Both the position numbers and the translations under genes were made by a program. This document shows positions 22,716 to 60,664 of a stretch of 64,000 nucleotides of DNA, piece by piece. Numbering within the stretch: the stretch's first letter is position 1; every line of letters begins with the position of its first letter. Origin of the DNA: Pocillopora verrucosa (taxonomy: Eukaryota > Cnidaria > Anthozoa > Scleractinia > Pocilloporidae); the NCBI RefSeq assembly GCF_036669915.1, contig NC_089320.1, forward strand, positions 18,473,868 through 18,537,867. The letters are read 5' to 3'. The notes beneath the pieces were generated by a model. That model saw only the letters and a list, made by a program, of their open reading frames with translations, made no database searches and had not been told where the DNA came from.

Positions 22716-22974
22716 TTTCTTTTTTTCCATTTTTCTCTCCTTCGTATCACCATTTTATAGTCTTTTTCCAGTTTTCTATCTTTTTCTTTCTGAGCAGTTG
22801 TCTTTTTGGTACGGTTGTGGTAAGTGCCGGTTTCTTTTTATAATTAAATGTAATATTATGTTATCATTATTTTATTTTAACTTCATTATTTTTTTATTCA
22901 AATTTTCCATAGATGGCTCATGCATGTTGAGCGACAGTTGCATAGCAATTGAAACTGGGTAGTTTTGATATCAA

Positions 22975-23625: not shown

Positions 23626-24582
23626 TTTACTTTTACGAGACACCATAAGCATTATTTCTCGCGACCAAAAATTACGATGACTTTTAAAAAACATAATTTT
23701 CTTTTACAAGGTTATTCACGCGAGACTTCATACTAAGAGACAAACTACCAAAGCACATTTGAAACATTACAAGTTTATTTTCATTAAAGAAAATTAACAA
23801 CCTGTATTTCTAGCTAAGAAGTACGTCTGGCAAAAAGTTCGAAAATTTCATACAAAATGGAGTCTAATTAGTCTAGGAATGGTAATGTGATTGGTGGAAA
23901 AGGCTGAATTACTTTAATTTTAGTAAAGTTCAAGAAAAATAGAAATATTTGTATCTAAGCCTTCTTTCCACCATCATCATCTTGATAAAAGCATTTGACA
24001 AAAACACTCTATAACTTAAACTGTATTTAAATATTGAGCTCATCACAAAAGCATCAACATGTTGCTTTCCAGCAAGTCTTGAATTCTTGCACCAAGACTG
24101 CCTAAAAATTTTGCTGTATGTTCTGCACGAAATGCTTCCCAAAACCATTTACATGCTTTTTGACTCTAGACTTAAACTAGTCTCATACTAAAAAAAATTT
24201 CAAATTCAGTCTAACAATATGTATTGCACTTTGCTATCATAAAAAAAATGCTCCACACACCTGTTACCAAGAAATAAACAAAATAAAGGGAAAAAACAGC
24301 AAAGATTGAGACAAGAATCTCAACTGAAGTTGATCAGTGGATGTATTCAAAATTTTATCCTGCAACAGGAAAGAAATCAGAATCACTCATGGATAAATAT
24401 CTCCTTTGTGAAAAAGGCAGCAAATGTTTCTTTACATAAGGTGTATATTCATCAATTTTCTTAGAAGGGCTAAATTTGAGGAATCCAATATTTTTTAAAT
24501 AAAAACTGTTAAAAATCTTTCCAGAGATATGCAGCACATGGCCTAAACCTAGGAATACCAGCCAGGCAGATTATGTGAAAAT
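23626..24582. other. Spacer 3' of the collagen gene, nothing recognised
   Basis: AT-rich with no supportable exon. It may hold the collagen 3' UTR: AATAAA on the minus strand (TTTATT at 23773-23778) is a distant candidate signal. Confidence 0.35.
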
Positions 24583-24794
24583 TTAACCCTTTAACTCCCA
24601 TGAGTGACCAAGACAGAATTTCTCCTTTCAATATCAATACAATACAAAGCAGACAAGTGATCAAAATATCAAGAAATTATCAATCAGGGGATTACAAGTT
24701 GATCCAATACCAAATCCTCCAGACTAACATTATAACAACTGTATGCAGACAGTAAGGAGAATTACCAATGAGATCTTGGGAGTTAAAGGGTTAA
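24583..24794. mobile_element. MITE with perfect 18-bp terminal inverted repeats
   Basis: The left end TTAACCCTTTAACTCCCA (24583-24600) and the right end TGGGAGTTAAAGGGTTAA (24777-24794) are exact reverse complements around a 212-bp element. It is the reference copy for the relatives at 19526-19735, 26325-26800 and 44530-44743. No coding capacity; the mobilising transposase is not in this window. Confidence 0.9.
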
Positions 24795-24968
24795 GCAAAT
24801 TTCAAGCTGACTTTTCTTTTCCATTGTTCAACTTGGGTTGTAATGACCAAATCATATGCATTTACTGGTTTCACCAGACAATTTTTCAAAAGATTTAAAG
24901 TGTACCACTCAATAACTTATGAAGAGATGAGCTTGACTCACATTAATTTTAAAGAAATTGTCACTACA

Positions 24969-27900: not shown

Positions 27901-30900
27901 ACAGCAAAAGAGAAAAAATGATAGCAATGGAGATTGGTCACAACAATGAACATTGTAATTCATTGGGTCCATGCTTGTGGCAATAAATAAAATACGAGAA
28001 AGTGAACCTCAAGTGGATTACATCATACTGCCAAAACAGGCTGTTTCATTAATATACTTACCATCAAAGGACTTACACTAGCTAAAAAACTTATTTAAAA
28101 AAATGGAGGAATTGAGTGCTGGTTATGAATCAAGGGCAAATAGATACAGGCCTTTTTTTTTTGCTATAACTGTGATCATGCAGCTATTTTTTTACAATAT
28201 GTGGTATCTAAAACTAGAATGTTTTTTTCCTTGAAAAATTTGAAGTATAAGCAGAACCAATCTGTGTTATATTCTGAGTCATTAATATCTTCAAAAAGGA
28301 ACCTTTTAGCAATAGAATTCAGTTTTAACTTTTGCACCTCTCATTTCAAAGACTTTATAAAACAACAAGTATAAGAGGCGACAGAAGACTTTTATTTTTA
28401 TTATTTAAGGATTTTTTAATTTTTGACAGCTTTTAAATCATAAGTTTAACTAACAGAAAAAAGCAGATAAAATACTTTAAAGTTAATGAGTTTTTAAAAT
28501 TATTCAAATCTTACAGATTGAGTACCTTTGTCTCCAACATCCCCTTTGGGACCTTTTTCACCCTGGGGTCCCTTTTCACCAGGGGCTCCTGTCTCTCCTT
28601 TCTCGCCTGCAAGTCCCCTTGGACCCCTTTCACCTGTTAGACCACGTGCACCTAAAGTATCCCCAAATGTTCCATAGGGAAGGTTTCTATGTGACCATCA
28701 TTGGCTTTCAAGTAAAATATTTTTGAGCTTTATCTTTTTAATGTTAATTGTTAGGTGCTTCCTAACATGATAGTTACACTCAAGGTTTTATGTCAAAACT
28801 CGGCTGTCTGATAGACAGTTAATTTAAGTGGATTATCTATCCTTTATACAGTGGATTATTTATAAAATAAATTCCAATTTATATATGAAAATATTTTAAG
28901 AACTTAAGAAGAGCAAGATATTATTCTGTTATATTTTCTAGCAGCTCCCTTATGCAAAAGTAATACATATTTTTCAAAATAACTTTTCAACACTGCTATG
29001 TCTACAAAATAGAGAAAAATAGAATAATCTCTTTTTAAAGATTAGCCACCTTTGGAATTTTTTTTTTGTCAAAACATGTCACCAAATATTAGACGACAGA
29101 ATACCTTGCATCCCTCTATCCCCCTGGGATCCTTCATCCCCCTTGGGTCCAGTATCCCCCTTGAAGCCTTGTTCCCCAGGGTCTCCTTTGTCACCTTTCT
29201 CTCCTGGATCCCCTTGGGCACCTTTCTCACCTATTTTGCCTGGGACACCTGTATAAAGTTTCCATTTCCATCAGTCTGGTTCATTAGAGACAAGGCCAAA
29301 AAAATGACTTTGAGATAAGCTTAATAGTGTAAAAATAATAATAATAAATAATAAGCAAATCACCAAAACTCTTAGCCCTTTGTTTTAAACCAAAAAATTA
29401 ACTATTCAAAAGTCTGAAAACTCTTCTAGATATTATGAAGAATATATTAACCTTTAGCTTCCAAGATGTCAAACTCAATTCTCAACTCTGTTCACTATGT
29501 TTTGAATTTAGTACCAAGAATTTGGTGTTTGATCAAACCATACTTCAAATTTGACATAATTATGCTTCAAAATATAGGAGAAATCCCTTTAGAATCACTG
29601 TAAGCAGTGAAAGAGATACAACAAGTCAACCTACATATGCCTGAAAGGTTTCAGGAAGTCTAGGTATCACAAAAAACTATTTTTCTGCTATGAAATTCTA
29701 ACCCTGACTTGTATTGTTTTAGAAGGGTATTAGCTTTCATCATATGTTACAAGATGTGTAAAGGAAGAACATTCACTAGCCTCCATAAAGAGTGGTTGAT
29801 ATACAGTTATCAGTCCTATGAATTAAAAGTGTTTAATTTTAGGTTGAAATACTCATGGCAATGAACAACTTAAAATGAATGATCAGATTAGTTACATTTC
29901 AGACTGGGAAATTGTATTTATTTGATTTCACTTTCAAAGGGAGATGAGTAAATCAAATTATATCAAATTTAATTTTCTACAGAAAAATTGCTTTCTTAAG
30001 GTTGCAAAAAAATTAAGAATTATTTATTAATTCACTTTTTTAAAGTATACTTTACCAGATCAGTAGATAATTCTCATCAGAAAATATCAAGCCAGTCTTA
30101 CAATAAACTCAAACGTTTACAATTTTTTTTAATCTTAGATTTCGCTACAAATTAATATTCCATTGACATGGTTAAGGAACGGCTGAGTCAATATTTATCA
30201 CGTTCTGTAAATACATTAAAGAAAATTATTGCAAAAAGTCCTTTTTCAAATAAAAATATTCATATAAAGTTAGTTTAAGTTTCACTGTTTGCTTTATTAA
30301 TACCATTTTGAGCACAATATGGCATTGATAATCGATAGTTAGGCAGAAAGCTTGCCAGTGCCACGTTGACAATCGTAGAGTTCGTGACACAATGAAGATT
30401 GCGTGAACGGTTTTCGAAGGTTTCTTTTAGAGCGCATAATCGCAACTTGTTGATGAAAGTTTTAAATTGACACGTTAGTCATTTGATTGGCTTCTTCTTC
30501 TAACTTTGGGGTTGTTATTCGACTTGAAATAAATTCAGTGTCATTTACATTAATTTTAAAGTAAAGCGTTTTTAATGCGTGACATCTCACGGTAATTTTA
30601 CGGTCAATAAAAGCATCGAAGCCGGTTAGTTCTTCTCGAAACAAAGGATTTCGACTCAAGCTGTGCAGGATCACCATTTCATAAGAAAGCAAGGAATAAA
30701 AGTCTCGATCTAATAGTGTAAATTGAAATCCAGTTAAAACTCTGAATTGAGAAATCCATATGATAAAGGAGAGGCTGCTTGCGCAAACAAACGGGCCCAC
30801 GAAATAAATCACTTACCCGCTTCTCCAGGCATTCCTTGGGGACCAGCCGGTCCTGATTTCAAATAAAAAGGAAATTTTAGTGTCATAATATCACAATAAC

Positions 30901-31443
30901 TACAAAAGCTTCGCATACCTCTCATCGTAAACCACACATTAATTTATCTTCTTAGGAAATAAATGCAAATGTTCCATACCTCGTTCTCCGGTTTTTCCAG
31001 GGGGACCATCGCATCCTGCATGAAAATACAATAAAAAAAAAAAAGGATGCAAATTAGGACAGGATCTTTCTAGATTTAACGTAAGTTTTAGAGATTTTTA
31101 GACTACAGGGATAAAGTTTCATTTGTCTACATGGCTCCTTAACCTCTAGCGGGCCGACCATTTGTTCGCGTGCACTGCTGTATTAATTCGCTGAAAAAAG
31201 TGGATGCCCATATTTTAGGAACACAAAGGGAAATTGCATCTAAGAAATAGTTCGTATGCGTAAAGGAGGGATGTATCGAAATTTACCTTGTAAAGGAATA
31301 ACTCCGTAGATCATGGCAAAATTCATTGCCATAGATGAAGTGGCGATCACAAATATGAGCAGTTGAAATGCGGAGAAACCTCCCGCACCCTTGGCTGCAG
31401 CCTGAGTGTCCTTTGTATCCTTTGGTGCTTTTTTTGCGGGCAT
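24969..31443 (-). CDS. Short membrane-anchored collagen (type II topology)
   Basis: Nine exons, 31287-31443, 30980-31015, 30817-30852, 29105-29248, 28526-28651, 27553-27606, 27165-27200, 26071-26115 and 24969-25108, join to 257 aa. Residues 1-22 are lysine-rich, residues about 23-49 are a membrane segment ([17 protein letters not shown]) and residues 53-247 are 65 uninterrupted Gly-X-Y triplets starting [12 protein letters not shown]. The tail is a ten-residue non-collagen end, [10 protein letters not shown]. Each internal exon is a multiple of 9 bp (36, 36, 144, 126, 54, 36, 45) and splits a glycine codon after its first base, as in classic collagen genes. The single cysteine after the first glycine could link chains. 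There is no C-terminal trimerisation domain (C1q, NC1, TNF-like, SRCR), which is unusual for transmembrane collagens. Topology and surface role are inferred. Confidence 0.9.
25180..25960. repeat. GGTGGGATGTGGGAT-type degenerate repeats in the last collagen intron
   Basis: Two clusters (about 25200-25370 and 25850-25935) are rich in GTGGGATG, GGATGTGGGA and related words, against AT-rich surroundings. Probably one dispersed family; no coding potential. Confidence 0.4.
26325..26800 (+). mobile_element. MITE copy of the TTAACCC family, split by a nested insertion
   Basis: The left part (26325-26390, ACCCTTAAACTCTCAAAAGTG then CTCTATAATATCCATAGATTATCCAG) and the right part (about 26690-26800, TCTTGATCTAACACCAAAATTCTT, GGAAATGTGTAGCAG, ATCTTAGGAGTTCAAGG) match the two halves of the copy at 19526-19735. 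About 300 bp of unrelated sequence between them, including ATACAATACAATAATATACAATAT and a (CA)n tract at 26610-26640, interrupts the element. Confidence 0.7.
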
Positions 31444-31731
31444 AATGCTGAATCAAAATCAGATGATATATGAGGAAATGTTACAAATACAGCACTCACG
31501 ATGAGGGTAATGCCTGCACGCGCAGACGGCTAAATAGAAGTGGCCGTGTTGAATAATCAATCAAGAAGATTGGGGTCAAAATATCGCAGACTGGTTCTAT
31601 TCTCCCGCGGTCCAATAGCCTGCGCCTGCTGAAACTTTGCTCACGCAGGGCGGAAGAATCTAAATAGTTCACAGAAGTTTAGTTGTAATCAATATTTAAT
31701 TTTGGACATACTGACGGTAATTTAAACTTCA
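31444..31731. promoter_or_regulatory. Divergent intergenic region, collagen / MPPED-like
   Basis: Only 288 bp separate the two divergent start codons, so both genes probably share a bidirectional promoter. No clear TATA box is seen; the region is less AT-rich around 31505-31640 (GCACGCGCAGACGGC, CTCCCGCGGTCC). Confidence 0.5.
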
Positions 31732-34248
31732 ATGAAGAGGATTTTGGCTAAGGCGAAAGCTAAGCAAGATGGAGGTGTTACTGTGGAACATGCCCTCGAA
31801 AAATACGTGGATCGTCCGACAATTGCATGGAATCTTCTCGAGTCATCTCAAGTTGTAGAAAGGCTAAAGCTAAATGATATACGAAGCCCAAAGCCTCCTG
31901 GGCACACAAGATTTGTCTGCATTTCAGATCACACAACAGAACGGATAGAATGGAACATGCTATTCCCGATGGGGATATCTTAATTCACGCAGGAGATTTC
32001 CACCATTGTGGAACCCGTGATCAAGTGATCCACTTCAACAGATTTTAGGGACACTCAATCCCTCACAATGTTGTCATCTCTGGTAATCAGCCATTTCGTT
32101 TGATCTCAAGAGCTACGATTCTCTGTGGGCAAACTTCACATGGATCAGAGAGGAACCTGAGGAAACTCGGAAGCAACTTACAAACTGCATTTATTTGGAA
32201 GACGAGAAATAACTGTGCGTGGATTTCGAATGTATGCTCCCCATGGTGAGATACTGCGGCTTGATTTAAAAGAGGCTAGAGCACATTTCTGGAGAGGCTT
32301 GGTATAAACCGTATCTTGAAAAGCTTTTTTAAATTTCAAATACAGGTTTTTGTGACTCAGGTGTCTATCAAGTGTTAACAAAACAAGCTCCTAGATGATA
32401 ATTCCTAGGACATTAATTACACCAAATTTGTTTGGGGATCAAGCATTACATGGGTCATAACATGCATGAATACATTCAAAGTATTGTCATTAGTTTACAT
32501 GACACCACATCTGATGTCCTGCTTGGCAGCACAGGGGCAGTATAGGTGTTTACATGTCATTATTACCATCAGAGGAATTTCCTTGGGAGAGAATCAACTG
32601 GAGATTGAGAGATCTCTAGGTTTTGGATGTTGCTTACCTTGTTGTATTCTCTAACTCTAAATTCCCTCTTCATTTTCCTTCAACTGGCGATAAGTAAGGT
32701 GCAAGCTTTGTTTGCCTTAGATACTTTCTTTAGTTACTACAACAGATTTATATTCTGATACAATTCTAGGTCACCTGAGTTTTGCACTGGCCTTTATGAA
32801 GCCTCGTGGTCAGTCAATGCAGGAGACATGGAACAAAATCCCAGATGGCATTGATATCCTTGTGACCCATGGCCCACCCTTAGGTACTGTAGTTTGCTCA
32901 AATCCTTAACACCCTACATCATGTGCCTATTCTCTATACTGTTCTCATCACATATTCTCTTGTTTTGATGAGGAAAATTGGTTTGACAATCAAACTTCTT
33001 CAGCTTCACTGAATAATAATTTCCTTTATCCTTACAAGCTAATGCTTGATTCAGCAGTGAGACTGTAGAATAAATCGATGCTTGTCACTCTCAGGGTTCA
33101 AGGATTAGGCCACTTAAAATTACTCATTATTTGAGTGATATTTAGCAATAGAGCTCCCTTATCACTCTACATTTCTGTGAAGCTCAAAAAACCAAAAGCC
33201 AGCGAAGAAAATTGGTGGAATACTATTGTGTCCCAAAGAAAAAGCCACAGTGTGAAGAAAACCATACCACAAAGTTACCATTCCAGTAATTAGTTTTAAG
33301 TGTGAAGGTTTTACTTGTGCTTTGAACTGTATTGCACAGTCATCTAATTTTCCCGTAACTAATTGACTTATTATATCAAACAAAGTGTTCACTGTTTTCT
33401 CAGCCTCAAAGTGTTACTTTACTCTTTATAGGTCATGGTGATCTTGCAGTTTCAAAGCTAAGAGCTGGATGTCTTAATCTCTACACACAATACAGTCTCG
33501 CGTCAAGCCCAAGTATCACATTTTTGGACATATTCATGAAGGTATATAACCATGTAAAACATAACCTCAGTTTGTAATTTGTATGACTCAGTTATTGTAA
33601 TAGTTGCACTGTACAGTCACTGTGATAAACAGTGTTTCACTGCCTCCATGATTAGAAAAGTTGAATGTGAAGTAAATTCTGTGTTCTAATCAGAACCCGC
33701 TGGCAGATGAAAAAGCAAAAAATTTTGAAGTATTTGGTTTATCATATAATAAATCCTTAAAGTTATGGTCTGTTTGGCTTCATTCTGTTAAGGGTTTTTT
33801 CATAACCTTGACAAACAAACAACCCAATAAATGGAGTAAGTTTCTAAAGAAACCGTGTTGTTGTATTGGCAGGGTTATTACAAGATAATTTGGTTTTATA
33901 AACTGAGGTGACATTAATTAAAATGGCCACTGGTGAGAGTTTCTAAGCTGATGTTTTGAGCATTAGCAGAATAAATGATGTGATAATTGGTAAATTCTGA
34001 ATACGTCTTTTAACCTAATTTTTTTAATATAATGACATTCAATAATCATTTAGTCACAGATGTAAGATAAACATTTTTCAATTGTACTCCGTAGGATATG
34101 GAATAACTACAGATGGAGTTACGACATTTGTAATGCCTCATCAGTAACAATCCAGTACCGCCGTCTCATCCACAATAGTATTTATCTCCCAAACCAAGAA
34201 AGCCTTGATCATCTTGATTTAACCTTTGCAGCATTCACTTTCTGTTAG
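31732..34248 (+). pseudogene. MPPED1/2-like (UPF0046) metallophosphoesterase, frame-disrupted
   Basis: Segments 31732-32245, 32770-32883, 33432-33541 and 34095-34248 match the MPPED1/MPPED2 metallophosphodiesterase family, with normal splice sites. The open part begins MKRILAKAKAKQDGG and reaches PKPPGHTRFVCISD, where a missing base at about 31930 breaks the metal-binding SDTH motif. Family motifs continue in shifted frames: DGDILIHAGDF, the GNH region near 32092, and TWNKIPDGIDILVTHGPPLG in the intact second exon. Frame breaks are also visible near 32047, 32207, 33494, 34133 and 34160-34181. Every premature stop follows from a one-base indel rather than a substitution. The gene is either a decayed copy or, more likely in my view, an active gene seen through uncorrected sequence. 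In a correct frame it would end DHLDLTFAAFTFC. Confidence 0.8.
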
Positions 34249-37200: not shown

Positions 37201-40200
37201 TATTGCGCAGCAGCTGTGTTATGTATATTACGTCATATCCTGGTTGAGCTGTGATTGCCTCCACAGGTCAGCCCGTGACGCAATGTGCTGTAGGTAGGGT
37301 GGTCTTCTAACCAAGGTTGGATGCAAATGTGAATTTTAGCATGACGGTACAACATTAAACAACCCATATTGGAGACAGCCACCCATTTTCCACCCTCGGC
37401 CTTTGATTCTGATGGCAAAAAAATTAAGTTTTATTTATATGGTGACACAAATGCAATCTGTGATGAACTATGAATTAATACATATATGTTCATTAATACA
37501 CTAGGTCCTCTACTTACATTATTAACCAAAGGGGAAATTTTAAGCCCATTCAGTCGATACATTTGTTATAATTAATAACAACTACTATCATAATGGAAAT
37601 TTAAGAATCCAGATCAAATGAGGTGTACCCCTCAACTGTTTATGCCAAGATTTTGCTAAGATTATCATGAGCTCACTAACCATTTGTAATTATTTTACAC
37701 ATGGTGTTTGAGTGCAATTTAGTGTTCATAAGCACAAGTAAATTTTCAAAGACAGCACATTAATCATGTTGTGACTTTTATGATAATTTAGTAATTTTAA
37801 AAAAAAGGCATCACAGAAAGTTAACAGAGATGAAGTTTGAACAGCATGCGTGCTATTTGGTACTTTGCACTCGTGTTACCTGAAAATGGACTTGTTTTCC
37901 AGCCAATGAGATACACACAATTTTATCATGTAGATTATCACATGGCTTACCCTGGCCTTTAACTTGCTGTCCTGCAACAACAACCATCCCCACATCTTCA
38001 GGGATATTGAAGTAAAGGTATCATTCCTAAATTAAAATGACATTAAAAAAAAAAAAGAAAAAACAAGAGTAGTGAGAACAGAGTATGACTTTGAGCCATA
38101 AAACATGGAAAACTGTTTCAGGATATTTCAGTTGTCCAGAGACCGGAGCCTGCTTTTTAACAGGTGTACTTAGAAACCTATCCACACTTAATACCTTATG
38201 CATGGCACTTCATGAATACTTTAACTTCTGAGCCTGTTGAAGGTCAGCCATTATCTTCAAGAAGCACTTTTACGAAGGAGGAGCTTATTCAAGAAAAGCA
38301 CTTTTAATTTTCATATTAAAAATGCATTATTCTTGGTACAGATGACAAATACTAACCCATCAAAGATTGTTTGTGTGGATGTGATTACATCAGTGTAGAA
38401 GACAACTTTTCCCAAAACTTTAGTTTTTAAGTATTTCTGGTAGGTGCTCCAGTTAAAAGAAACAGCCTTAGAGTTTTCCTCATGACAGATAACTGGTAAT
38501 TTCTCCTCTGTGACATTTGGAATATGCATTTCATCACTTGCCACAAAGTGTAGTGAGAGCTGGTTTCCTTTACAGATGCCGTCCTCCAGTGATGATCTTA
38601 AAGACTGCATAAGTTTTTGTTTATCCTTTAAATTATAAGAGACAAATAGCATTTAACCATGAATGTTACATGAAATATATCTTAAAATGTTATTATTTGG
38701 AGAAAGTTGGGCAAGCATAAGTGGCATGGTAAAGATAGAGATATTTCCATGGCAGATTGAGTAGGAGTTAGGGAATAGGTTTAACTTATAATATCATATT
38801 GGTCACATGCTTGATGTCTTCTTGTAATACGAGGTGAAAGTTAGTTAATAGTTTTATTTTCACAATAAGACTTACAGGGCACTCCATTTCCAATTTATTT
38901 GATTTTGTCATAGTATGTCAGTGGAAAAGCAAGGGGGCAAATTTTTGACTTACAAGGCAATAATTTTTTTAATCTTATTTCCTTACTTTTCTTTCAAATT
39001 TTTATGAAAAGAAGCTTACCAATTCATTTCCAAGAAGGAATAGTGGAGTCAGTTCTGGCACTTTCAGAGGCTTAAAACTCAATTTTAGTAGTTTTAAAAT
39101 ATGCAGCAACATCTTCCTTCTGGCATCACTGGATTCTCTCAAGCTTTTTAAGTTCTGTGTGTCTTGCTCAAGACTGACTAATTTTCCATTATCAGCAAGT
39201 GACTCTAAATGAACAAGGCTAAACACAGCATTGCCAGAACCTTCGGAGATCTGAATGATAACTGGTCTCTGTGAAGTTTCTTCTTCTGCAATAATATTCA
39301 CTCTCTCACCTGTATTTATTGAAAAAAAAAATAAAATCAATCCCTTGTATTTTAAACATAAGGGTTTAAGTTACTCAGAACCGCTCACCTTCAAAATAAT
39401 AAGGCTGACAAAGTGCAGAGAAATGGAGCTTCACGTCAGAGACTACGTCTTGATTGGTTCTGAAGGATCCAATGAAAGGCTCTTGGTAGTCATCCAAGGG
39501 CTTTTTGACAACTTGACACGTAAATGAACTACACAGGCTTAGAATCTGTCCGCGACATTTAAGATACTTCAAAAGCACTTCTTGAACTTTGATGACATTG
39601 AGTCACTATTTCCAAGAACCAATAGAGCAGTGTTTTCGACCCATGGATGGGTGGTGAGCTGTTGTTCATAAATTCTGTATATTACATAGCTATGCAGATT
39701 TATAACTTGTGACAGTGCCCTCTTAACTTCAGTGAACCTCCTGCCTTCTGTGTCATAAGTTCCAGTATATATAAGGATGTTCGGAGGCTTTGAAGATTTA
39801 GTAGTCATAGCTTTGCTAACTGGACTAGTTAACCTTGAAGCTGGGGAATAATGCAGAGAACTTAAATTAGTGAAATACCTTTATGTTTCAATTTAAGAGA
39901 CCATTTTTAACAAAACCATTGTCATGATCGAGGAAAATATAAAATTGGTTTTCTGATAGAATATTGTAGACGGTATTGTCACGATCCTTTACATGAGATA
40001 CTGCCGCGTTCATTTTCAAAAATGCTCCTAACCTTTACTATTCTAATATTTCTGTTAACTGAACATTTAAAAACAGTCACACATAACCCTTCGATTCGTT
40101 TCAACTGGCTATCAAGAGAGATAGTGCTAGGATCACATGTTTACCTGATGACGATCGAAGGATCGAAATTTCATTTACACCTGCAACCTTCGTACACGAC

Positions 40201-40310
40201 GAAGTCAAATTCAGAATCCTTAATTTTGTTAGGGCAAAACCAGCTAACCAACTAGCACCCAGCATTTTAAGGACGTCCAAAAGAGCGCGTTTCTCACATG
40301 ACAAAACCAC
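34235..40310 (-). pseudogene. HLCS: Holocarboxylase synthetase (biotin-protein ligase), frame-disrupted
   Basis: HLCS attaches biotin to carboxylases and histones. Recognisable exons: 40145-40310, 39389-39840, 39020-39309, 38357-38625, 37951-38026, 37232-37400, 36675-36797, 35995-36215 and about 34235-34372. The N-terminal region shows KPPNILIYTGTYDTEGRRF. The third and fourth exons are intact (DARRKMLLHILKLL, YLKTKVLGKVVFYTDV). Catalytic-domain pieces survive in mixed frames: EDVGMVVVAGQQVKGQG, AEGGKWVAVSNMGC, NDVFFGNKIKIGG, GINISNTEPTI and ARTVNTIEALIEDFQENG. The last exon resembles the C-terminal barrel (SESKSLIQIHP). One-base indels occur at least near 39572, 38020, 37395, several places in 37240-37340, 36700, 36775, 36080-36100 and 36020. 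Splice sites remain good. It is either a pseudogene or a real gene in an unpolished part of the assembly. Confidence 0.85.
35302..35445. repeat. Degenerate GGATA/TATCC foldback copy
   Basis: GGGTGGATAAATG at about 35350 and CATTATCCACCC at about 35412 are inverted. Outer GTTGTTCATTGG and AAAACAACTT are weakly complementary. Related to 22114-22246. Confidence 0.45.
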
Positions 40311-40611
40311 TACAACGTCTAAGGCTTTAGACAGACCAGGGGAATCACCGGTAGGAAATCGCGGGCGCTGTGTGTTGAGTGCTCATCTATGTAACCTTCA
40401 TCATCTGTCTCGGGGAGTAATAAGGCTAGAAAACGACGGGAAAAAGAAGAAAAGGATACCGCAGGTGCCACCTTCAACCAGGAGTGTGTCAACAAATATA
40501 TAGTTTTTGTGTATGCAGCTTCTCAAATGATGTTAGAGAGGTATTAAAACTTAAGAGTATTCAACCTTGCCGCAGACGAAATAGAGTTATATGAAGTTTT
40601 GTTGGGACGCT

Positions 40612-40617
40612 TTTATT
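40612..40617 (-). terminator. Polyadenylation signal AATAAA (minus strand)
   Basis: TTTATT on the plus strand, 57 bp past the stop codon at 40674-40676, gives AATAAA for the 211-aa gene. Confidence 0.6.
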
Positions 40618-40673
40618 AGGTCTAATTCGATTTGAAAGACTCGGCAAAGTGATTGGAACCTCAGACTGTTACA

Positions 40674-43454
40674 TTACATTCGATGCTCTATTCGTTTCAA
40701 TGCACTACCCAATTTCGAAGAAGCTATCATTAAACGTAACAAATAATTCATAGCTATCTTTTCCTCCTCTTCTTTATCTTTACTCGGATTCTCTGAAGCC
40801 GCTGATTCCAGGCAGGAATTACAGTTGGGACATATTTGTTCTCTGTAGTCATATCTGATTTGGTCAAGAAAAGAAGTAAATATAGTCAGTTTTTTTCAAT
40901 ATATTGTACCGTTGATAGTCATTGATTGTCATAAAACAGAGTTAATAAGAGTAGGAAGCCATAATTAAAGACACTTAATCTCAAGCCACATTAGGATGCC
41001 TAAACTCCAGTTTCTCGAGGGGAGGACCTTCCCTTAGGTCAAGGCTCTCACACCTCATATTCTGAGTCAAATTTTCACAAAAGTGGATTATAATCGCGCC
41101 TTAATTTTAGTTGATAAGTGAAGAAAGATTGGTTCACCACAATACAGCCTTATGGAAGCCACCACCGTAGGATTAGAAAATACCGTCGATAACACATTAT
41201 CAATTCTTACTACAACATGCATTAATCAGAACTCAGCATTTCCTACTTCATTGATTCCATAAAGATAAAAAAACTTATTCAGCCCAGTAGGAACAAGGAG
41301 GAAACGACAATAAGCGGAAAGGAAATGAGCCAAGGTGTATTATTTAAAAAGCCACTTACTGTGTAACTGCTGCAGCATCACAATCAGAGTCACCCTCCGC
41401 TAGAAAATGACACCCATCTGTTAGAAAAGGAAACTGCAGTCATTTGCGATGTGTACCTTCTGATGAAGGAAACAGATAATTTTAAAGACGATGATTACGA
41501 ATTATGATGTATGGAGAGAGGATCAGCTCGTCTATTCACTAACCTGAGCTTGTTTCATCGCTATGGTTATTTTGGGGGACGACATGGCATGCCGATGCCT
41601 GCAACAACACGAACAGATGAAACTTAAATGACAAACTCTGCCAATAGTTACGCGTGTCGGCACTTTTTTCCTTTTTCATCAATCTTCATTCAAAACTATT
41701 TTACCCAGATGAGTTAGGCCCTTCTCGTGTACTGGTATTAAGATTTCATCCAGTCAAAATATCAATTGAAAAAACCGAAAAGAGTGAATCAATTCTCCTG
41801 TACCGAGTGAATGCCCTGCTTCAACTCGTATATATTCGACCACCATATTGCTAGGGGAAGAATGTTGTTGGGGGTTCTCTATACTAGGATTCCATTGTCT
41901 GAACCTCACTTCCTTCAAAGTGTGGTGTGATTGACGGAGAAAACAGTCATTAGAACCTTTCAAGAAAGGGAGAAATGAGAATGCAAGTTACAAACTTCTT
42001 CCAGAGATATATTCTTCTGCTTTCTGAGTGTTTTCTTTGTTATAAAAAGTCTCGAATTTTAAGACTTGCCTCTGAAGAAGAAAGTTCACCATGGAGCCCA
42101 AAAGCCCGCGTAAAATCTTGTTGTTGATCGGACAGGATTCTATGCACATTATGTTTAAGTTTTTCAAGTTCTCCGTTTATTCTTTCACGCACAAAGTTAT
42201 CTGTAAAAACAAAAATAAAATCAATGAAGTGTAAACGCTTCTCAAAAATGGTGAAAATGTTATATTTCTGTCCTTCTGTAATTTCAGGAACCTACAGGAC
42301 ATGCAAAGGACATGCATTAAGGGCCGGCGGGATTGAACCGTCTGTCGTTCAAAAGAAAAGTTAAATGGAAGCGAACATACGAGGTCATACGAAATCCCAT
42401 CCTCTTGTCTGCTTATATATTTTGTCAATTTGTATTATTCCTGCAATATAGCAATAAAGATACTGGTACTGCTACGAATAACAATAATGATACTAGTATT
42501 ACTACGAATAATAATAATAATAATAATAACGACGGTGATAATGATAATGATAAATCGGTAATGACGATATTAATCGATAAAGAAATTTATCAAATAATCA
42601 GAGAACCTAGCGACAAAGGCAGTAGGTGCTGCTTCAAAAATTAGGAAAGAGTTGGGATTGTTTTGAAGAAGTGAAAAGACAAAATATGCATTTTTAAAGC
42701 TATTTGATTAGAAATATTTTACATCTTCTTACCTAGATGTCGGAACACCGCAGCGGCAGCAGCTGAATCATCCGTGGAGCTGGATACTGACATGGCCTCA
42801 TCTGACATGGGATTCATGTGCCCCACCTTCTGAGTATTTTCAACATCGTCAGCTATTTTCTTATAGCTATTTGAAAATCGAACAAAAATATTGTTGTAAT
42901 AATGTTACAAGACACAAAAATAACACATCCTAGTGTGCAGGGATCAGTCGTTTAATCTTTTTCCCCCACAACCATTCTGATTTGCAAGGAAAAGAAAGCT
43001 AACAATAATAAACATATTTGAGCGATGCAAAACTGACAGGAAAAAACCTTAATGGTCTGTGACAGGTTTATATTTCAAAGCCACTCAGTGTTTGGTCGTC
43101 CTACCCTCTTTGCATTTCCTACAACTTCGATCATTCAATTTTTAATCCCTTGAAGATTGTGCACTGGTCAGTGTGAAAACTCCCCAAAAATGTATTTTGT
43201 TGTCTGTTCGTCGGAGTTTCAATTTACAACAAGAGCTACATTCCATTTTTTATTGAAAATCAAATTCTGAATCTGAATAATCGTTTTACATTCTTAAATT
43301 AGTGTAAAATTGCATTCTCTCGGCAAGCCAGGATGCTTTTAGTTTAGATGTCTACCTACCTTTGGTTGTGATCATCTGTGAATATGGTGCAATAGTTGTT
43401 CATCAGTGGAGAGGCTTCATAAATATTCGTCAAGTGATTCGGATCAGCAGCCAT
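40674..43454 (-). CDS. Uncharacterised 211-aa protein with CPNC motif, divergent from TEX11
   Basis: Exons 43360-43454, 42733-42866, 42070-42200, 41544-41598, 41360-41399 and 40674-40854 close in phase to 211 aa. I do not recognise the protein. It starts MAADPNHLTNIYEASPLMNN. Residues about 52-73 are Ser/Asp/Ala-rich (SVSSSTDDSAAAAAVF). Residues about 78-105 look helical and charged (FVRERINGELEKLKHNVHRI). Residues 139-150 are acidic. C160-x2-C163-x2-C166 (CPNCNSC) could be half of a metal site, and the end is a basic helical stretch (SSKLGSALKRIEHRM). No signal peptide or membrane segment is seen. The third intron appears to use a GC donor (GAG/GCAAGT at 42068-42070). Its start lies 631 bp from the divergent TEX11 start, so germline co-expression is possible but untested. 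Intactness across six exons argues that it is a real gene. Confidence 0.7.
42476..42556. repeat. AAT/GAT-rich microsatellite
   Basis: Imperfect trinucleotide repeats of AAT and GAT with an (AAT)n core at 42506-42530, inside intron 2 of the 211-aa gene. An open frame on the plus strand here is produced by the repeat. Confidence 0.85.
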
Positions 43455-44085
43455 CTTTGATAGGTTTCGTTGTTTTTCAGGCTGTGGAACCACTTACTGT
43501 CGCATCCTAATAAAAATCAATATTTATAAAAAAGAAGGCCTCTTTTTGACTTGAAGTGAAGTGATTTTTACGCATTTGATAAAAAATAAGCAAATTGAAT
43601 GATTGTGATTAGCTTGAAGCGCATATAATCTGGGAATATTCTCAAACAGATTTCTCTAGCGCGATCTAAAGAACTCTATTAATTTACCTCTCCTCGAAGA
43701 ACGAGGAAATTCTCAGTTTCAATCTGTATTTTGTGGAAATTTGGCCATTAATAATGTGAAGTGGTAGTGATGTGTTTTCCCCAAAATGGATTCCTCCAAG
43801 ATAGTTTTCGATGGCTAAGTAAACTTCAAAACGGCAGCTCAGATGTGTATTTAGTTTTCTGTTGATACATTTCGCGCCGAAAGTGACGCGCGAGCCGGTT
43901 TCCCGCCTTTTTCTCTAGTGCCCGCGGTTGGCAATACTTTGAGATCTCCCGGTTGTAAGAGTTATAGATAGGATTAAAGCCTTTACAGTTTTGTAAAGTT
44001 TTCCTTTTTTTGGCCACAAGATGCTTCATCAAGCTTAGCAAATTTACAAGAGTTAACTGGCTTACATTCAGCATAAAACTCTAAG
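43455..44085. promoter_or_regulatory. Divergent intergenic region, 211-aa gene / TEX11
   Basis: 631 bp between two divergent start codons. A locally GC-richer patch (about 43860-43930, GCGCCGAAAGTGACGCGCGAG) may mark a shared promoter core. The minus-strand open frame 43826-44074 inside it has no family resemblance and is treated as chance. Confidence 0.45.
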
Positions 44086-47000
44086 ATGAACGGCGATGGT
44101 CTAGAGGACATTGGAAAAGCTTCAACTCTATTGCAAGGTGAGCTGATAAATTGTACAATTAACTGAATTGAATTATCTCAACAATTTTCTTTCCTTGAGT
44201 GCAAACGTTTACCAGGTTCCGCTTATTCTACATTCAGCTCTCGTGAAGGACTTGCGTTCAAATCAAAACAGTGCGGAGAGGGTGGCAGTGTTGGCCGATC
44301 GTATAACAAACCTGACGTGCAGAATGCATCAACTTACATTTGAAAGAGCTGACAATAATGCAGTGTTGATACAGATTCATAGCAATGCTGTCACTCTGTG
44401 GAATATTGCTGTGGCAATGAAGACGGGTAGTGGGCAAACTGGAACAACCGAAAATGCAAAATGTATGTATTTTTTTCCTTCTCACTACCTGAATTTAGTT
44501 GTTAAAGTAAGGTTCCACCTCAACCATGCTTTAACCCTTCCATTCCCAAATCTTATTAGCAATTCTCCTTATAGTCCTGATACAATTCGTACGGTACTTG
44601 TTCGAAGAATATGGTACCGGATCAACAAATAATCAGCTAACTGATATCTTCGTTATTCTCATCACTTGCTTGCTTGAAATTGCATCAATTTGACATTGTA
44701 AAGATAATTTCTGTCTCGGTCACTCATGGGAGTTAAAGGGTTAAGGAGATATTGCTTTTGAAACTGCAAGAGTAACAAATTATTAAGTCAGATTTCTTCG
44801 CTTGCTCGAATGAAGAGAAGATTTTTTTCAATCTTGAATATTACCGACTCCTTTGTATTATAGTAAGACTATCCGCATTCGCGCACTTCATGACTTCCAT
44901 TTGCAACCTTTTCCAGTGATCTACTCACAACAGGCGACATTTATGCTGACACCGGCTGACCCAAAATATAGCGCTAAACTCAACCAAAAGCCTTGGAAAT
45001 GTCAGCCGAGTCGGTTGACCATAAAAAATTACTGCGAGTGGTCGTGAGATATTCAAGAAAGATTTTGGAAGCTAGTATCCACAACGACTTACATATCACA
45101 TATGGCCTTATCAGCCTCTCCACCCGTAAGACGAATTTTAAGTTAGATGAAGGACTTTTTGGAATGAGTACACTGAAAGTGTAGTTCGGAAAATACCCGA
45201 ATTGGTGTAAAATATAAACCTTTTTGGATATAAAATTGTATAAACAAAAATTTCTCTCCCTTTCCCTCCTTCACTTCTTTCGCGTAGTGTGAACGTAAGA
45301 ATGCCGCCCTCAATTATCCTGTTGCGATTTTACCAATAGGGGCCTCTGACCAGTGAATATGAGGAAAAGGCTTCCTTGGCGGAATAATCCATTGCTTTAA
45401 ATTGTATTTTTTTTTCTTTCAGTGAGGTATGCAGCTTGCAAGCTTTCATTTTTGGCTAATGCTGCTGAAACATGTGAAGTAACCTACCGGAAACAGTTAG
45501 TGGTACGGAATTATGTAACAATTTTATAAATGAAATAAAAATTCCAGTTAAATGAATTAATAATTTTGTTCATAATGCAACACTTGATGATCTCTTTTTT
45601 TTAGATGACGACGAAAACAGGACGAGCCTGGCTGGGTGAGCAAAAATATTTACTCAATATTATAGCTTCATTATAGAACATAGCCGTTTCATTCACTTTG
45701 CAAGAAAATTTTTAAGTCAAAGTTTAATTTCCGTCAAGTGACTAACCCCTAGGTAATCGCCTAAATAAAACGAAGACAATTAAACTTTGCATTTGATACG
45801 AACATGGGTAGAAATAGTCGGGAAAGTGGGTAATTGAGCGCAAGATAAATCGATAAAACCATCGTTATGTTTAGTTAAGACGATGAGGAAAAGCCCAATA
45901 AATAAGTTTTTCGGGATGAACAAGATTTTATCATTAACAATCATACCTTTATCTTTTCCTTTTCCTTTCATATATTTCAATGTCGACCAACTTGTGTACT
46001 ACAGATTGTCAGAATCCAGCCATGGCAGATGAATGCCTTGCCTTAGCAACTGAGGCAAGTTTGTCGACTACATGAGAATATTATGATTTGAAAACACGAT
46101 TAATTTTTTTAGTATTAACGGTGGTATCTAAGACGACTGTTTTGTTAAAATTGCAGTGTTGGAATGGGCTGCAGAAGTCGTGGTCATCAAGAGATGAACA
46201 TGATTCACCTACACCAGAGCAATCTAAACAGATCGCAGAATGCGAGCGATACATGTTCAGAGTCTACTGTTATAGAGCAGAAACGGTGAATATCATTTAC
46301 CGTTACTCTTCGTGTGATCCAGTTTATCAAAATAATTATATTAATGAAAAATAACAAATCCAGGAAGACTAAACGTTCCTCTGGATTTTTTACGTTTTTT
46401 CGTTCCAAGAGAATACAGTTGATGTGTGGTGGCCATTGATTAAAACCAAAACGAAAACCTTCCAGTCATTCCCGAATCAATCATAGGAAACCTTTCCGGC
46501 TTTCCTTACCATACAAAATGTTCGAATTTGCCCTGAGAAGTCTTTATGCTGTTCGGGAAAGCTATAGAAAAAAGACACAAGCAGCAGGGTTGACGGCATG
46601 TTCTAGGAGAAAATATAATATACATTTTTTAGTTCTATTGAAGACACTCTATTCCCATTTTTATGGCGCAACCGCAATTACTTAGCTAGCATATTTGTTA
46701 TCCATCAAAGTATAATTTGATTTTTTTCTTGCAAAATAGAGCTTTTCAATGTGTCAGCAAGATAGAACACAATTGTATGTAGCCAAAGCTAAAGAATTCA
46801 TGGGCAGACTTCCTGCAAAGGAGGTAAAGGTTCAATCTAAAGTTGGTCTATTTGACATCGAGCGGCTATTTACAGCTTTGATTTTCTTAATTTTTTCGTC
46901 TTAAATTTTGTTTACATAAGTGCATTACGCTGGCGGAACTGTGCTACAATTTTGGGGTTGATACATATTACAGAGAGGAATACGAAAAATGTATTGCATG

Positions 47001-50000
47001 GCTAAGGTAGGTGAAATTTTGGATACAACTGAGATTGGCCTACTTTTGTTTTGAGACAATTCGTTCCGGATTTCTTACAGTAATCTACAGCGTGATAGAG
47101 AGTGAGCTACCGGAGAGTCACCATTTCCCAAATCAAATGTTGGAAAACGAGTGATTTGGGGAGATAGGATAGGTATCTAGAATCTTAGGATCTTCTTAAT
47201 ATTCTTTTAGTGTACGTCATATTATAGGCGAAAAGACGAAATTGCATCACCGAGCAATTATGACAATTAGTGTCCGAGAAACATGGTCAAATTTATCTTT
47301 CACTCACAATTTTTGCAGGGAAAGTTACGATATTCGGAAAGAAAATGGTTCTTCAGGAGCTAATAAACGGGTGAGCGCCTTTAACTCACAAGTAAAATGT
47401 TATCCTTTCATCCACTTACTTTGTCCGAGTAAGAAAAAAAGAGCATGCTCGGCCGTTCAGCTATTTCTTAAAGTGAAAAAAGCTATAGAATACTGTAAAT
47501 TATAGAGTTAATTTCAACGTTGCTTCAAACTTGTAGTGCTGATCAAATTTCTGGTTACAGCAAGCTACTACTTTGCGTCTCATGGCCAATGCATATCTTG
47601 ACTGGGACTCTAAACAACATTGGCAAATGGCTCTTAATGCAGCTGGTAGGGAAAAGTTATTTGAATAAAGTATTTTTAATTCTTTTTTTTTTTTTTATCA
47701 GTCTAAATGGTTGCTTTTGAACATTCGTGTTCTATGCTTGGTTTAATTCCACCCTTGACCCCGATCATTTGTCACCCAACTTCCGTAGTTTTAGTGCTAC
47801 AGTTTCAATAAAATTTAAATTCAATCCAATCATCATGTTTTCTTTGAATTTTGAAATCTTTCCCAATATATCCAACCCGACTAAATAATATCTCTTCCAC
47901 TATTTTTTTTCAGACCTTGCGAACTCTGTAAGTGGCGTTGCTTTCTTTTAATACGTTTCATTTCCTGTTTCAAACCTCCTCCGGCTATTGATTCTTCAGC
48001 CATGAAATGATAAATTTTACGTCGTGTTTTAGGAGCATGGGCATCCGGCTGGGCTTTACTTAAAAGCCAAACTTCTTTTGATGGGTAATGGAGACGAAGA
48101 GTTGCCGTGTTCAAGATTGTGGTCTGGTATGAGGGTCTTAGGAATACTTTTCTCTTAAATTAAGATGAACTCAACTTCCAAAGTAAGTTGTCGTGCAAAG
48201 AAATTTTAAAGGATATCTAATCCAAAATAGACTACAACATATTAGTGCGATAAAAAAACAAACAGCCACAAAACATCAACAGAAACAACTTAAACAAAAA
48301 AACAAGAAAACAAGGGAGGCAACCATAAACAACGGAAGAAAGAGTCCTTCAATGATGACCACGTAAGGAGAATATTACGAGCGATTCCAAACCACCTATT
48401 AGAATAACGTGGCTCGACGTTTCAAGGTCTGCACGCTGTGACCTATCAGCTCCCTCAATATATAATCATTGGTACGCGTTTATAGCTATAGATTTTGAGG
48501 ACGAGTCGAACGGGATGCAGATTGAGAAGCTCCATTTAAATTCTCACCTTTCCTTTCACCCAGCATTCGAGGATACTCTCCGGCACCCTGACTTAAAAGT
48601 GGATCTTGGGCTTTGTGCTGTAAACCTAGCCGTCCAATACAAGAGGTGAGTGATCTATAATATCGTTGATAGTATGATCAACCATGGTTTGTAATACGCT
48701 TACCAGTTACATAATGTATTACCATTTTTACCTTTTGGCAAATGTGGTAGCCTGTTACACTTCTTTATGGAAATAGACATTAAGAGTCGCAGATTTTCAT
48801 GTTTATGAGAGAACAAAGCTTGATGAATGTATTTTATTACGTTTTTATCCTCAGAACAGAGCTGGCTTTTGACTGCTTGAAAATCTTGGAATCTAGATTT
48901 AAAAATTCTCCCGACCTATACAAAGTTCAGTTAGAGCATTTGGTAAGTTTCAAATAATTCATGGCGTTGGCACAATATTTTGATTCGGTTGCACCCGTTA
49001 TAGGGTAAAGTTCCAAATCATCTTGATGTAGTTTCACAAGGTATTTAGACGTGTAATTAAAGTAAGAAAATCTTCTTTTGGTTAAAGGTTGGTACAGACC
49101 TGCTGCTCCCAACTGTAGTCGAGTTCAATAAAGGACATAGTTGGAGGCAGATAGTTATTATAGCCCGAATTGATCTATTACCATAAAGTCTTAATTACCA
49201 AAACTGACCTCAATTTTCTCTCTCTGCTTTCCATATCTAATCCTTGAAGGAACTTCTTCTGAAGAACAACAAAGATGAAGATGCCAAAGCTCTCATCGAA
49301 AAATGCATTGTTGGTATGTTTTTTTCCGTTTTTCCTCTTTTGAAATCGCTAAGAAATTTTTGAGTGGCGAGGTCACTGTGACGAAGTCATCAGGGATTCT
49401 TTGTAACATGATTGTTATTCTTATTGTAGATTCATTTTCGGAACTTTAAGAAGGAATAAAAGAAATTATAATTATTCTGATTAGACTTTCCGAGAACCAC
49501 TGCCCATTTCGGATGAGATTATACGTAAAGCAGGAGTACGTCGTTTGTTTATCAGTGATTATTCAAAAAACTCACGTATTCTTGTTAAACTCTGTTATAG
49601 CACAGCTTTTTTCTGTATTTTCTCTAGATGAAATGGAGAGGTCTCTCGATTTTCAGATTTGTCAGCGATTCCATATTCTCTTGTGGGAAAAAGCTGCTTC
49701 TGCTTACGAGGTTAGGGCAACTGTTGGCAGTTATCATAATCCATTAATTCATTTTCGCACGTAAACAGAATTTTGTTCAACGATGTAATATACTAGCTTT
49801 TCTAGGTAGCACCATTAGGCTAGCACTATCATTGACCGACAACTTTCTCGATCTTTCCTTAGAGGAGAAGCTACAGAGAAGCCTTAGACTGGTACAATTA
49901 CTCTTTGAGCTTCTTTTCTTCAAAAGAGGAAGACATAAAGAATATTGGGAAACTCCTGGTTAGTGGTTAGTTTTTTTAGGCTTAATTAAATTTAATCGAA

Positions 50001-53000
50001 ACGCCTCATTGAAAAACTAAGCAATGACAGGTATTATCTATGATCTGGGTAAGTATGACATATCTTCAGCAGAATTTATAACACTTCAGACGAGAACCTT
50101 TTCGCAGGAAAAACCGAACCAAACAGAATGATAAAATAGCAATATAAAAATTATAGTAATATTGGACTCACTTCACTTACAATCAGGATAAGAGAGTTCT
50201 CTACCTCTTTTTTACGCAGAGGAACAAATGCTCCTGTTACATGAATCTTCAAGATTACGAAAAGGTCGGTATTAATAGTTAATTTTTAGTCATTCGATAA
50301 ATGCTGTACTTTCAACATGGTGGATAGTTTTGTACGACTGAATATGAACGCCTCTCCCTTTTCAGTTCTTGTACTTGCGTTAGGCTTATTATCTCCCTGA
50401 TTTCATCTGACAGGACTGTGATTTATTTCATAGAGCAAACCGGAGTTAACTCCATGAGCTAGTTGATCACTCAATTAAAATCTCATGTTTCTTCCATTTT
50501 CTATCTCATACTCCTATGGAAAAGTACCAAATAAACAAACAAAGTTTAAAATAAGGCCCTTTCACTTTCTTCAGCTTATTTTTCTTTGTTTGTTTCTTCG
50601 TTTGCTTTATAGGCCAAAGAAGTTATAGTAGAAGCGGAGCAAAGTGATCCTGACAGTCCTGTCATTCAATTCTACAAGTTTAAAATCGCTCTCGCCGAAG
50701 GACAAGATGTTGTCGGTCAGTTGTGCATTTGTATTCTTTGACATCTTTTTACGGGAATGTTGTGAGAGGTTATTCTTGTCACTGAGAGGCACGAGCTTAC
50801 TCAGAAAAAAGGCAGGATAGGTGTTTCAAACCTAAATAGAAAACACGACCCTCCTATTACTGATTCTTGTCTCCCATGTTCTCTCTCCATTGGTTTGTTG
50901 TAGCTGTAGACGCAATGACAAAGATAAGCGAGGTTGGTTCAAATCAAGATAATGACGTAGCAGAGACTAATGCTCATGGACTGATCTGTCTTGCTGCACA
51001 GCTAGCTCTAGAGGTAAACTTTCATGTTACAAACAGATGGACAGCAAATACGCTCTGCTGTTTACGTTCCAGGTCGGAGTACTGATTGTTCTTCGCTGTA
51101 TTGTGGATTGAATTGACTCGGTGACACCAATTATTTGAGCGATATCGCTTTTTATATTGATTACTACATAATGACTTGGGATTTCTATAGCACGAAATTA
51201 ACAAAATGTTAACTTGAATGGACCGTGATCAGAGGGGTGTAGCTAAAATTTATCAAACCCTTGTGCGCATAGAAGATGAAAATAGGAATTTTGAATACAA
51301 AGTAAGAAAACTTGAGTTCTTTAAAGATTTAAGGTTGGTACGCAAGTTCCTTAGATACCTTTTATTCCACTAATCTCTTTCCATACATGAACTCTTCCCA
51401 TATATGCATTCTTTCCATATACGAACTCTTTCCACTTCTGCAAATTCCCACAATAGTGATTTGTTGCTAGAAAGCGCAAGATCATTTTTATCAGAGAAAA
51501 TGCAGTCTGCAGTCACCAGGATAGACTGAGATAAATGACGTGTACCTTGTCCTTCAGCAAAAGAACCATAACGTAGCTGTCAGTGCCTTAGAAAAAGTCG
51601 TAGCGAGCAGCGCCGATAACCAGCAGGTTCTAACCTCACTTAGGTAAGTCATTCAAGTATTTTCCTCTCTTTTCATCACGATCGCGCTTTTGTAATGAAA
51701 ACAGACAGGTGTGCTGCTGCTGACACGGTTTGATAAGCTAATTTGCTTGACAACGAAAATGGTGCTTGCGTTTAGTCGGTTTCTTTGAGTTTCTTCTTCA
51801 ATCCATCTCCAGTGCTTGTTGTTCAAAATTGCCACGCTTGGTAATTTTTTTCTGAGACAGGCTGTTTTATCGTAGTGTGAGAGCTCCATTTCACCGAATG
51901 TGTAAAATCCGTGACGCAACCCAGTTTTTCATTCTCTACCCAGAAAATTAATAATAGGACGGAAAAATCATGGAGCGTTCCCTTTTTTGGAAGAAAAAGA
52001 TTAGCCGTGATCGCTAATTCAAAATGTTTTTAATAGGTGCCTGACAAGATTAAAACTGACGCAGTCCACAGATTCTGGAGCAAAGTAAGTTAAGGAGGAA
52101 TTCTACCTGGATACCTATTATTAAGGCCAGGTAAAAGGAGGGGGTAAAAAAAAAGGTGGATTGAGGGATTACATCCTTTTTGTTACGCATTATTTTACAC
52201 TATGACAAACACATAAAAGAAAAAAAATTCCAAGAAAAAATGAAAAAACAAAAAAGAAAAAGGATACTTCTATACAAGGTAGCCTTAAGAAAACAGTGTC
52301 ACTAAACATTTTGTTTAAACACGACTGTTAGCCGTACTTTTTATGTCCCAATGACTGTCTCTCATTGTCAATAAATTCGTTATTATTAATCAGTTCTGCG
52401 GCTCTTTTCCATTGATTCAGAAAAGATTACAGCAGCTTTTTGCTTTACCTACAGACCGGTAAGTGTTACACGATTTTAGAAGTCTGATAAGAAGGTTTCA
52501 AGTGAAGTGTCCCTTAGATAGAGGTAGCTACCTTACCCCTGTTGGTATAAACGTAACCTTTTATGAATCCACTGGATTCAACTCCAAATATTTTTTTCTG
52601 AATCCCAACTAGTGGAAAACTTGATGCACGACAGGATCCTTACTTTGTTCGTAGTTTTTTTATCTGTAAAGTTTGTTCAACTATTCCAGTCAAATCCGCC
52701 TCTCATTTTCTTTTTTAGCTTTAGATCGCTTGAATCAGATGGAGCTGGTGAGCGATTCTAATGTGCAAACAGAAGCCGCATGGTTCATGAAAATTGGTAA
52801 ATTTTTCCTAATTATTTGATACTCTTGTATTTCACGGGGTGCGAAGAATTATATATTAAGAGGGTTACTCAAGAACGAGGAGAGATCTTAAAATCAGATG
52901 TAAGCTATACATGTAATTTGTGCTTATTGTCTTTGACTGATATCCAGTAAACATAGTGAAATGATAGGACATCACGCAGATAATATATAGCTTTAATACA

Positions 53001-53266
53001 TAGCGGGGATGTGGAGTATGAGATCACCGCTTCCCGCCCCTTTTGACATCCGGGACATTATTCGAATTCCAGCTTTAACTATGTAAAATAAACACACCTA
53101 TGTCATAACAGACAGGGAAATGGGTGGGGACAGAGAACAATTCCATCTCAAGTTGTTAAATATTCGGCGCTAGAATTTATTTTCAGCCCTTAATTCTGTG
53201 ACAGACAAAAGGAATCACTACAAGACAACAACTTAGTTAAAAAAGAAAAATGCCCCCACCCCCCTA

Positions 53267-53297
<31 letters not shown>

Positions 53298-60400: not shown

Positions 60401-60627
60401 TTACCAATACAGACGCCTGCGTATTCTTTTTGTTTGTTTGTTTTTCTTTTTTAACTGTCACGAAATAAAGGTTTCCTGTGCGTTACCGAAAATTTCTCGG
60501 CTTCTCTTATAAACAAATAATGGTATAACCAGTGCGTGGTATTACGACTTGTAATATTTCAAAATTGTCCAAAATACCACTCACCCTTCGCGGCACGTGG
60601 CATTTTGAACAATTTTGAAATATCACT

Positions 60628-60664
<37 letters not shown>

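Follow-up and report, generated by a model that had tools for sequence, protein, structure and literature searches.

A six-exon orphan gene head-to-head with TEX11 in the coral Pocillopora verrucosa and a candidate E2F-type promoter between them

Among mammalian germline genes, Tex11, Mael, Stag3, Smc1b and Ddx4 are named as having promoters of the E2F6/PRC1.6 type (PMC6895862). In the mouse, Tex11 is probably repressed by PRC1.6 and is drawn as a possible E2F6/DNMT3B locus (PMC6895862), it is derepressed in Pcgf6-deficient animals (PMC12435664), and its expression is raised by STRA8, with E2F motifs enriched among the genes that STRA8 activates (PMC6392498). The TEX11 promoter of the coral Pocillopora verrucosa likewise carries the E2F consensus, but differs from these mammalian promoters in that it belongs to a divergent pair with an orphan gene, the 631-bp gap between the two genes contains no CACGTG E-box, and control by E2F is a prediction. 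The literature search found nothing on E2F and meiotic genes in Nematostella and, judged by titles, nothing on TEX11 in cnidarians or corals.

The orphan gene has its own closest counterpart in the 'dark', i.e. unannotated, genes of cnidarians. A survey that took in 205 datasets of cnidarians and outgroups counts 11.4% of 7.1 million proteins as unannotated (PMC13044578), so that an unrecognised coral gene is unsurprising in itself. The present gene resembles these dark genes in being an intact coral gene to which neither a family nor a function can be ascribed, whereas the abstract of the survey stresses families that arose in bursts of duplication, and no second copy of this gene was found. 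The arrangement of the locus can be compared with bidirectional (head-to-head) promoters of less than 1 kb, with which it shares the 631 bp between ATGs on opposite strands and the locally raised GC and CpG content; it differs in that the gap holds no CCAAT box and in that a common core region for both transcription starts and co-expression are here predictions.

The analysis covered a 64-kb stretch of the P. verrucosa genome (the window; Table 1). The initial annotation had placed a TEX11 gene next to the orphan, and this identity is borne out by the joined exon translations, which match the Pfam profile SPO22 with an E-value of 1.3e-40 (140.1 bits, against a cut-off of 27.5). For TEX11, the chain given by an exon-chain dynamic program that scores codons and splice sites comprises 28 exons and runs to 54099, with some of the exons and the 3' end doubtful. 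A start of TEX11 exon 2 at 44216 was rejected because it breaks the phase with exon 1, which 44238 restores. The N-terminal part of TEX11 was not found a second time in the coral's own genome. Searches of this genome with the SPO22 and HORMA family profiles returned 0 matches each; given that TEX11 is present, the SPO22 miss must stem from the shortness of the exons, and neither miss indicates absence. Just past TEX11, a plus-strand open frame at 54071-54544 has a weak match to GIY-YIG (E 0.009, below the cut-off) and is perhaps a retroelement remnant. On the other side, the gene downstream of the orphan shares its strand and resembles biotin-protein ligases (BPL_N, E 5.7e-5, 22.6 bits, against a cut-off of 24.2). 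This gene is presumably HLCS; its likely first exon, which reads MLGAS..., possibly encodes a mitochondrial leader. The locus is thus compact on both sides of the orphan, which makes the closeness to TEX11, taken alone, a weaker argument for a connection between the two genes.

Table 1. Coordinates of the orphan gene, its neighbours and the features between the divergent genes (positions within the window).
Feature	Position	Strand	Remarks
HLCS-like gene, likely first exon	40249-40265 and around	minus	about 400 bp past the orphan stop
AATAAA poly(A) signal	40617-40612	minus	57 bp beyond the orphan stop codon
Orphan exon 6	40674-40854	minus	CPNCNSC cluster, basic C-terminal segment, TAA at 40674-40676
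Orphan exon 5	41360-41399	minus	acceptor of the initial annotation; 40 nt
Orphan exon 5, alternative in-frame acceptor	41360-41417	minus	58 nt, six more residues
Orphan exon 4	41544-41598	minus	
Orphan exon 3	42070-42200	minus	amphipathic helix-like stretch; GC-AG intron next
Orphan exon 2	42733-42866	minus	
Orphan exon 1 (coding part)	43360-43454	minus	ATG at 43454-43452, context AAAGATGGC
Possible orphan 5'UTR intron	43507-43687	minus	putative; donor GAG/GTAAAT 8.6 bits, acceptor TTATTAG/GAT 7.1 bits
Divergent intergenic region	43455-44085		631 bp between the two ATGs
E2F consensus site TTTCGCGCC	43870-43878	plus	exact motif match
E2F consensus site TTTCCCGCC	43899-43907	plus	exact motif match
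TEX11 (SPO22/ZIP4-like)	44086-54099	plus	exon 1 44086-44137, exon 2 44238-44462

The structure first proposed for the orphan gene stands in nearly all respects. Between 43454 and 40674, read on the minus strand, the six exons join in phase into 636 nt, i.e. 211 codons and a TAA; the AATAAA said to lie nearby is where it should be, and the distance of 631 bp to the TEX11 start is exact (orphan ATG at 43454, TEX11 ATG at 44086). Four of the introns are of the GT-AG type, and intron 3 is GC-AG (GAG/GCAAGT), a donor that occurs in TEX11 too. Scored with a matrix built from 17 donors and 16 acceptors of TEX11, mixed with a general consensus, the donors of exons 1 to 5 reach 9.8, 8.7, 8.6, 9.3 and 4.8 bits and the acceptors of exons 2 to 6 reach 4.5, 9.8, 7.8, 4.6 and 3.7 bits. 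The splice sites, described at the outset as good, deserve that name for the most part, with the exception of the weak acceptors (3.7 to 4.6 bits) and the exon 5 donor (4.8 bits). An in-frame TAA 14 codons upstream of the orphan ATG (open frame 43356-43493) favours a translation start at the ATG at 43454, except in the case of an upstream exon spliced in downstream of this TAA.

The exon-chain program, to which the previously proposed exons were not supplied, recovered the same start, the same stop and five of the six exons; for exon 5 it chose an acceptor 18 nt upstream, in frame, and the score of its model is 74.4, compared with 70.1 for the original one. The program's performance on TEX11 (13 of 17 hand-placed exons exact, two with one end changed and two missed, with the start of one exon taken as 46005) is not an independent control, TEX11 being part of its training set. 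In 300 dinucleotide shuffles the score averaged 23.6 (sd 7.8) and peaked at 57.5, so that none came up to 74.4; the orphan region read on the opposite strand scores 18.7. Scores at least as high as that of the orphan were obtained for 14 of 200 tiles cut from arbitrary parts of this genome (20 stretches of 10 kb each) and, within the window, for 18 of 152 tiles (those over the minisatellite left out); most of the 18 lie on TEX11, on the glycosyltransferase-like gene or on the probable gene at 13-21 kb. The orphan score is therefore gene-like and not unique, the high-scoring tiles presumably being mostly real genes. One of the 18 chains includes an exon at 43907-44029, upstream of the orphan gene, and continues into that gene, which makes a different 5' structure possible.

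Elsewhere in the window, the minisatellite is long (7611-10169) and open on both strands, with repeats such as SATSVQNLK and FRFWTLVAD. The best exon chain at 11289-21097 on the minus strand reads like a WD40 splicing factor, presumably CDC40/PRP17. At 22515-32673, also on the minus strand, an exon chain encodes a hydrophobic segment followed by collagen-like GPxGxx repeats and probably represents a transmembrane collagen, and minus-strand open frames at 57499-62921 match the chondroitin N-acetylgalactosaminyltransferase and PA14 profiles and probably belong to one gene.

Codon usage points in the same direction as the exon chain: the stated frame of the orphan scores +18.4 bits and the other five -3.8 bits or lower, in a comparison that favours an open frame by construction. 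Of 3000 random pieces drawn from presumed noncoding regions, 4 reached the orphan's per-codon score of 0.087 (known genes, left out singly, range from -0.05 to -0.003). These regions, which also supplied the background of the exon-chain program, hold probable exons of other genes, so that the null is imperfect and errs towards strictness. The orphan might be noncoding all the same: its open exons could line up by chance, or the TEX11 promoter could give rise to a noncoding transcript in the divergent direction. The three weak acceptors (3.7 to 4.6 bits), the 40-nt exon with its weak donor and the GC-AG intron would fit such a reading. It is very improbable in view of the 0/300 shuffles, the low score of the other strand, the excess in the coding frame, the poly(A) signal in its place, the good start context, and the presence of the GAG/GCAAGT donor in TEX11 as well. 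With a start, in-phase exons, splice signals, a stop, a poly(A) signal and a coding bias all in place, the orphan is almost certainly a real protein-coding gene, and the original view of it as intact is upheld by the exon-chain program, the shuffles and the best codon usage among the six frames.

The predicted protein has 211 amino acids (23.5 kDa and pI 4.9 for this form), or 217 with the alternative exon 5. The chain looks disordered and Ser/Asp-rich and appears to include an amphipathic, possibly coiled-coil helix at about 82-110, where the helical moment is highest; there is no transmembrane-like stretch, the largest hydropathy over 19 residues being 0.92. Cysteines occur at positions 22, 124, 145, 160, 163 and 166, the last three of which make up the CPNCNSC cluster, which matched no zinc-finger family in Pfam; the C-terminal segment 184-211 is basic, with a net charge of +5, and probably helical.

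Similarity searches identified no family for this protein. Queried with the full 211 residues, the longer 217-aa version and three fragments, Pfam gave a best E-value of 0.0079 (for a fragment), below the curated cut-off; NCBIfam gave zero matches, and no credible match was obtained among PDB sequences (best E 0.018, for a fragment). The weak hits themselves, to Redoxin, UBN_AB, DUF2576 and DUF1690 in Pfam and to FHIT-like chains, an H2B chain, BRE1A and an M protein in the PDB, were rejected as insignificant or below the cut-off. No profile of a known meiotic ZMM or synaptonemal family in Pfam, and no solved structure of such a protein in the PDB, matched the sequence. The 85 pattern matches in GTDB prokaryote genomes and the 26 in IMG/VR include no relative and, like a phage search, are uninformative for an animal gene; Rfam gave 0 matches over 38000-46000. 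The earlier statement that the protein matches nothing known holds for Pfam, NCBIfam, PDB sequences, prokaryotes and viruses, which for an animal protein is a weak test. No second copy was found in the coral's own genome either: a search at E-values up to 10 hit six places, five of which are the gene's own exons and the sixth of which has an E-value of 0.99.

The gene is probably restricted to corals and their near kin or else has diverged past recognition. A particular form of the latter would be a fast-evolving member of a known small coiled-coil family of the cell cycle or meiosis (centromere, centrosome, synaptonemal), conserved beyond corals and lying below the reach of sequence detection. 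The length of the orphan, its acidic low-complexity linkers and its short amphipathic stretches fit small coiled-coil proteins of this kind, and an E2F promoter would suit a cell-cycle gene; with no significant match in Pfam or among PDB sequences, such membership appears improbable.

The gap between the two genes is distinguished by its base composition and by its E2F motifs. At 43800-43999, the observed/expected CpG ratio is 1.39 and the GC fraction 0.43, compared with a CpG ratio of 0.73 for the window, and GC rises to 0.51 at 43850-43949. The E2F consensus, which is taken here to be TTTSSCGCS, occurs three times in the 64-kb window, and two of the three sites are in the 631-bp gap. With six sites in 200 kb (20 arbitrary stretches), the background is 0.03 per kb, and about 0.02 sites would be expected in 631 bp against the two observed, although the CpG-rich core raises the chance of such motifs. 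At least three sites appear in 18 of 100 shuffles of the window, so that its total is not high, and the unusual part is the occurrence of two E2F sites within 38 bp at one promoter. The choice of the motif followed inspection of the sequence, after which a set of 16 motifs was counted. The 353-Mb genome contains 215 tandem pairs of the motif at this spacing, many of them visibly in repeats, compared with 53 for a reversed-pattern control.

The positive control was 27 kb of sequence upstream of MCM genes, at five loci out of the eight counted in the same genome. TTTSSCGCS occurs there six times, where 0.81 would be expected; the sites fall at four places, two of which are palindromic and count once on each strand, and in four of the five stretches. 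The laxer motifs are less enriched (TTTSSCGC, seven against 2.2; TTSSCGC, nine against 4.3, the weaker case). Two of these places precede apparent start codons, by about 60 bp and by 102-113 bp, at loci that are presumably MCM5- and MCM3-like; the fifth stretch, which may not reach the start of its gene, has no E2F motif. Among the tandem pairs listed, which run as far as C9:2.99 Mb and end before the present locus, none is at promoter-like distance from the five MCM loci that lie on the listed contigs (C3, C5, C6 and C7), so that the control backs the single motif and not the pair. One listed pair is 1.3 kb before a MutS_V exon (C5:25.96 Mb); the MutS_V domain being C-terminal, this pair is unlikely to be a promoter.

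Taken with the control, the motifs make E2F-type control of TEX11 likely and a candidate E2F-type divergent promoter between the two genes plausible. Two tandem E2F sites at a cnidarian TEX11 promoter recall the mouse Tex11 gene and may hold more interest than the orphan gene does.

Whether the orphan shares this promoter, as the initial annotation had suggested, is a separate question, on which the evidence is divided. The gap does hold the two E2F sites, which may serve TEX11 alone: they are separated from its ATG by 179 bp and from that of the orphan by 416 bp. The start of the orphan, AAAGATGGCTGC, resembles the YY1/TISU short-leader element, with two mismatches to the consensus of that element, and AAGATGGC at this start is the only one in the window; such an element would put the transcription start at the ATG, about 400 bp from the E2F sites. 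These features would be expected if the orphan were an ordinary housekeeping or somatic gene, a chance neighbour of TEX11 with a short-leader start of its own, E2F sites that belong to TEX11 only and no functional link between the two. The short gap would then follow a local rule, to which the HLCS-like first exon about 400 bp past the orphan stop also conforms, and unannotated proteins are common enough (11.4% in the cnidarian survey, PMC13044578). However, the strong Kozak context together with an Ala second codon accounts equally well for the likeness to TISU, mismatched at two positions as it is, and the possible 5'UTR intron from 43687 to 43507 would move the transcription start to about 43,860, close to the E2F sites. 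On balance, a chance neighbour is rather unlikely, and co-regulation of the orphan with TEX11 is a tentative proposal, slightly short of an even chance.

The explanation preferred here, which as a whole has about an even chance of being right, is that of a genuine single-copy gene that has an E2F promoter in common with TEX11 and encodes a small adaptor protein. The gene, with six coding exons and an acidic product of 211 or 217 residues, would be read in the direction opposite to TEX11 from a compact promoter, rich in CpG, with two E2F sites in its core. Factors of the E2F family would bind there, opening the pair of genes in germ cells and dividing cells and closing them elsewhere, and the protein would most likely act as a small adaptor that binds its partners via its two predicted helices. 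A meiotic role of the protein is unlikely, and its proposal as a meiotic partner is a guess.

What is new at this locus is the pair of exact E2F consensus sites in the gap between the orphan and TEX11, the orphan itself being of an ordinary kind. Coral genes with no assigned function are common, and this one stands out by a candidate E2F-type promoter in common with a meiosis gene. There is a small chance that it is an unrecognised anthozoan factor of meiosis or the germ-cell cycle on a conserved E2F-controlled promoter common with TEX11; if so, E2F control of meiotic promoters would be older than the split between cnidarians and bilaterians and would have captured a lineage-specific partner gene. 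Should both genes follow the E2F promoter, the locus would provide a candidate germline factor of corals and bear on the age of E2F control of meiotic genes.
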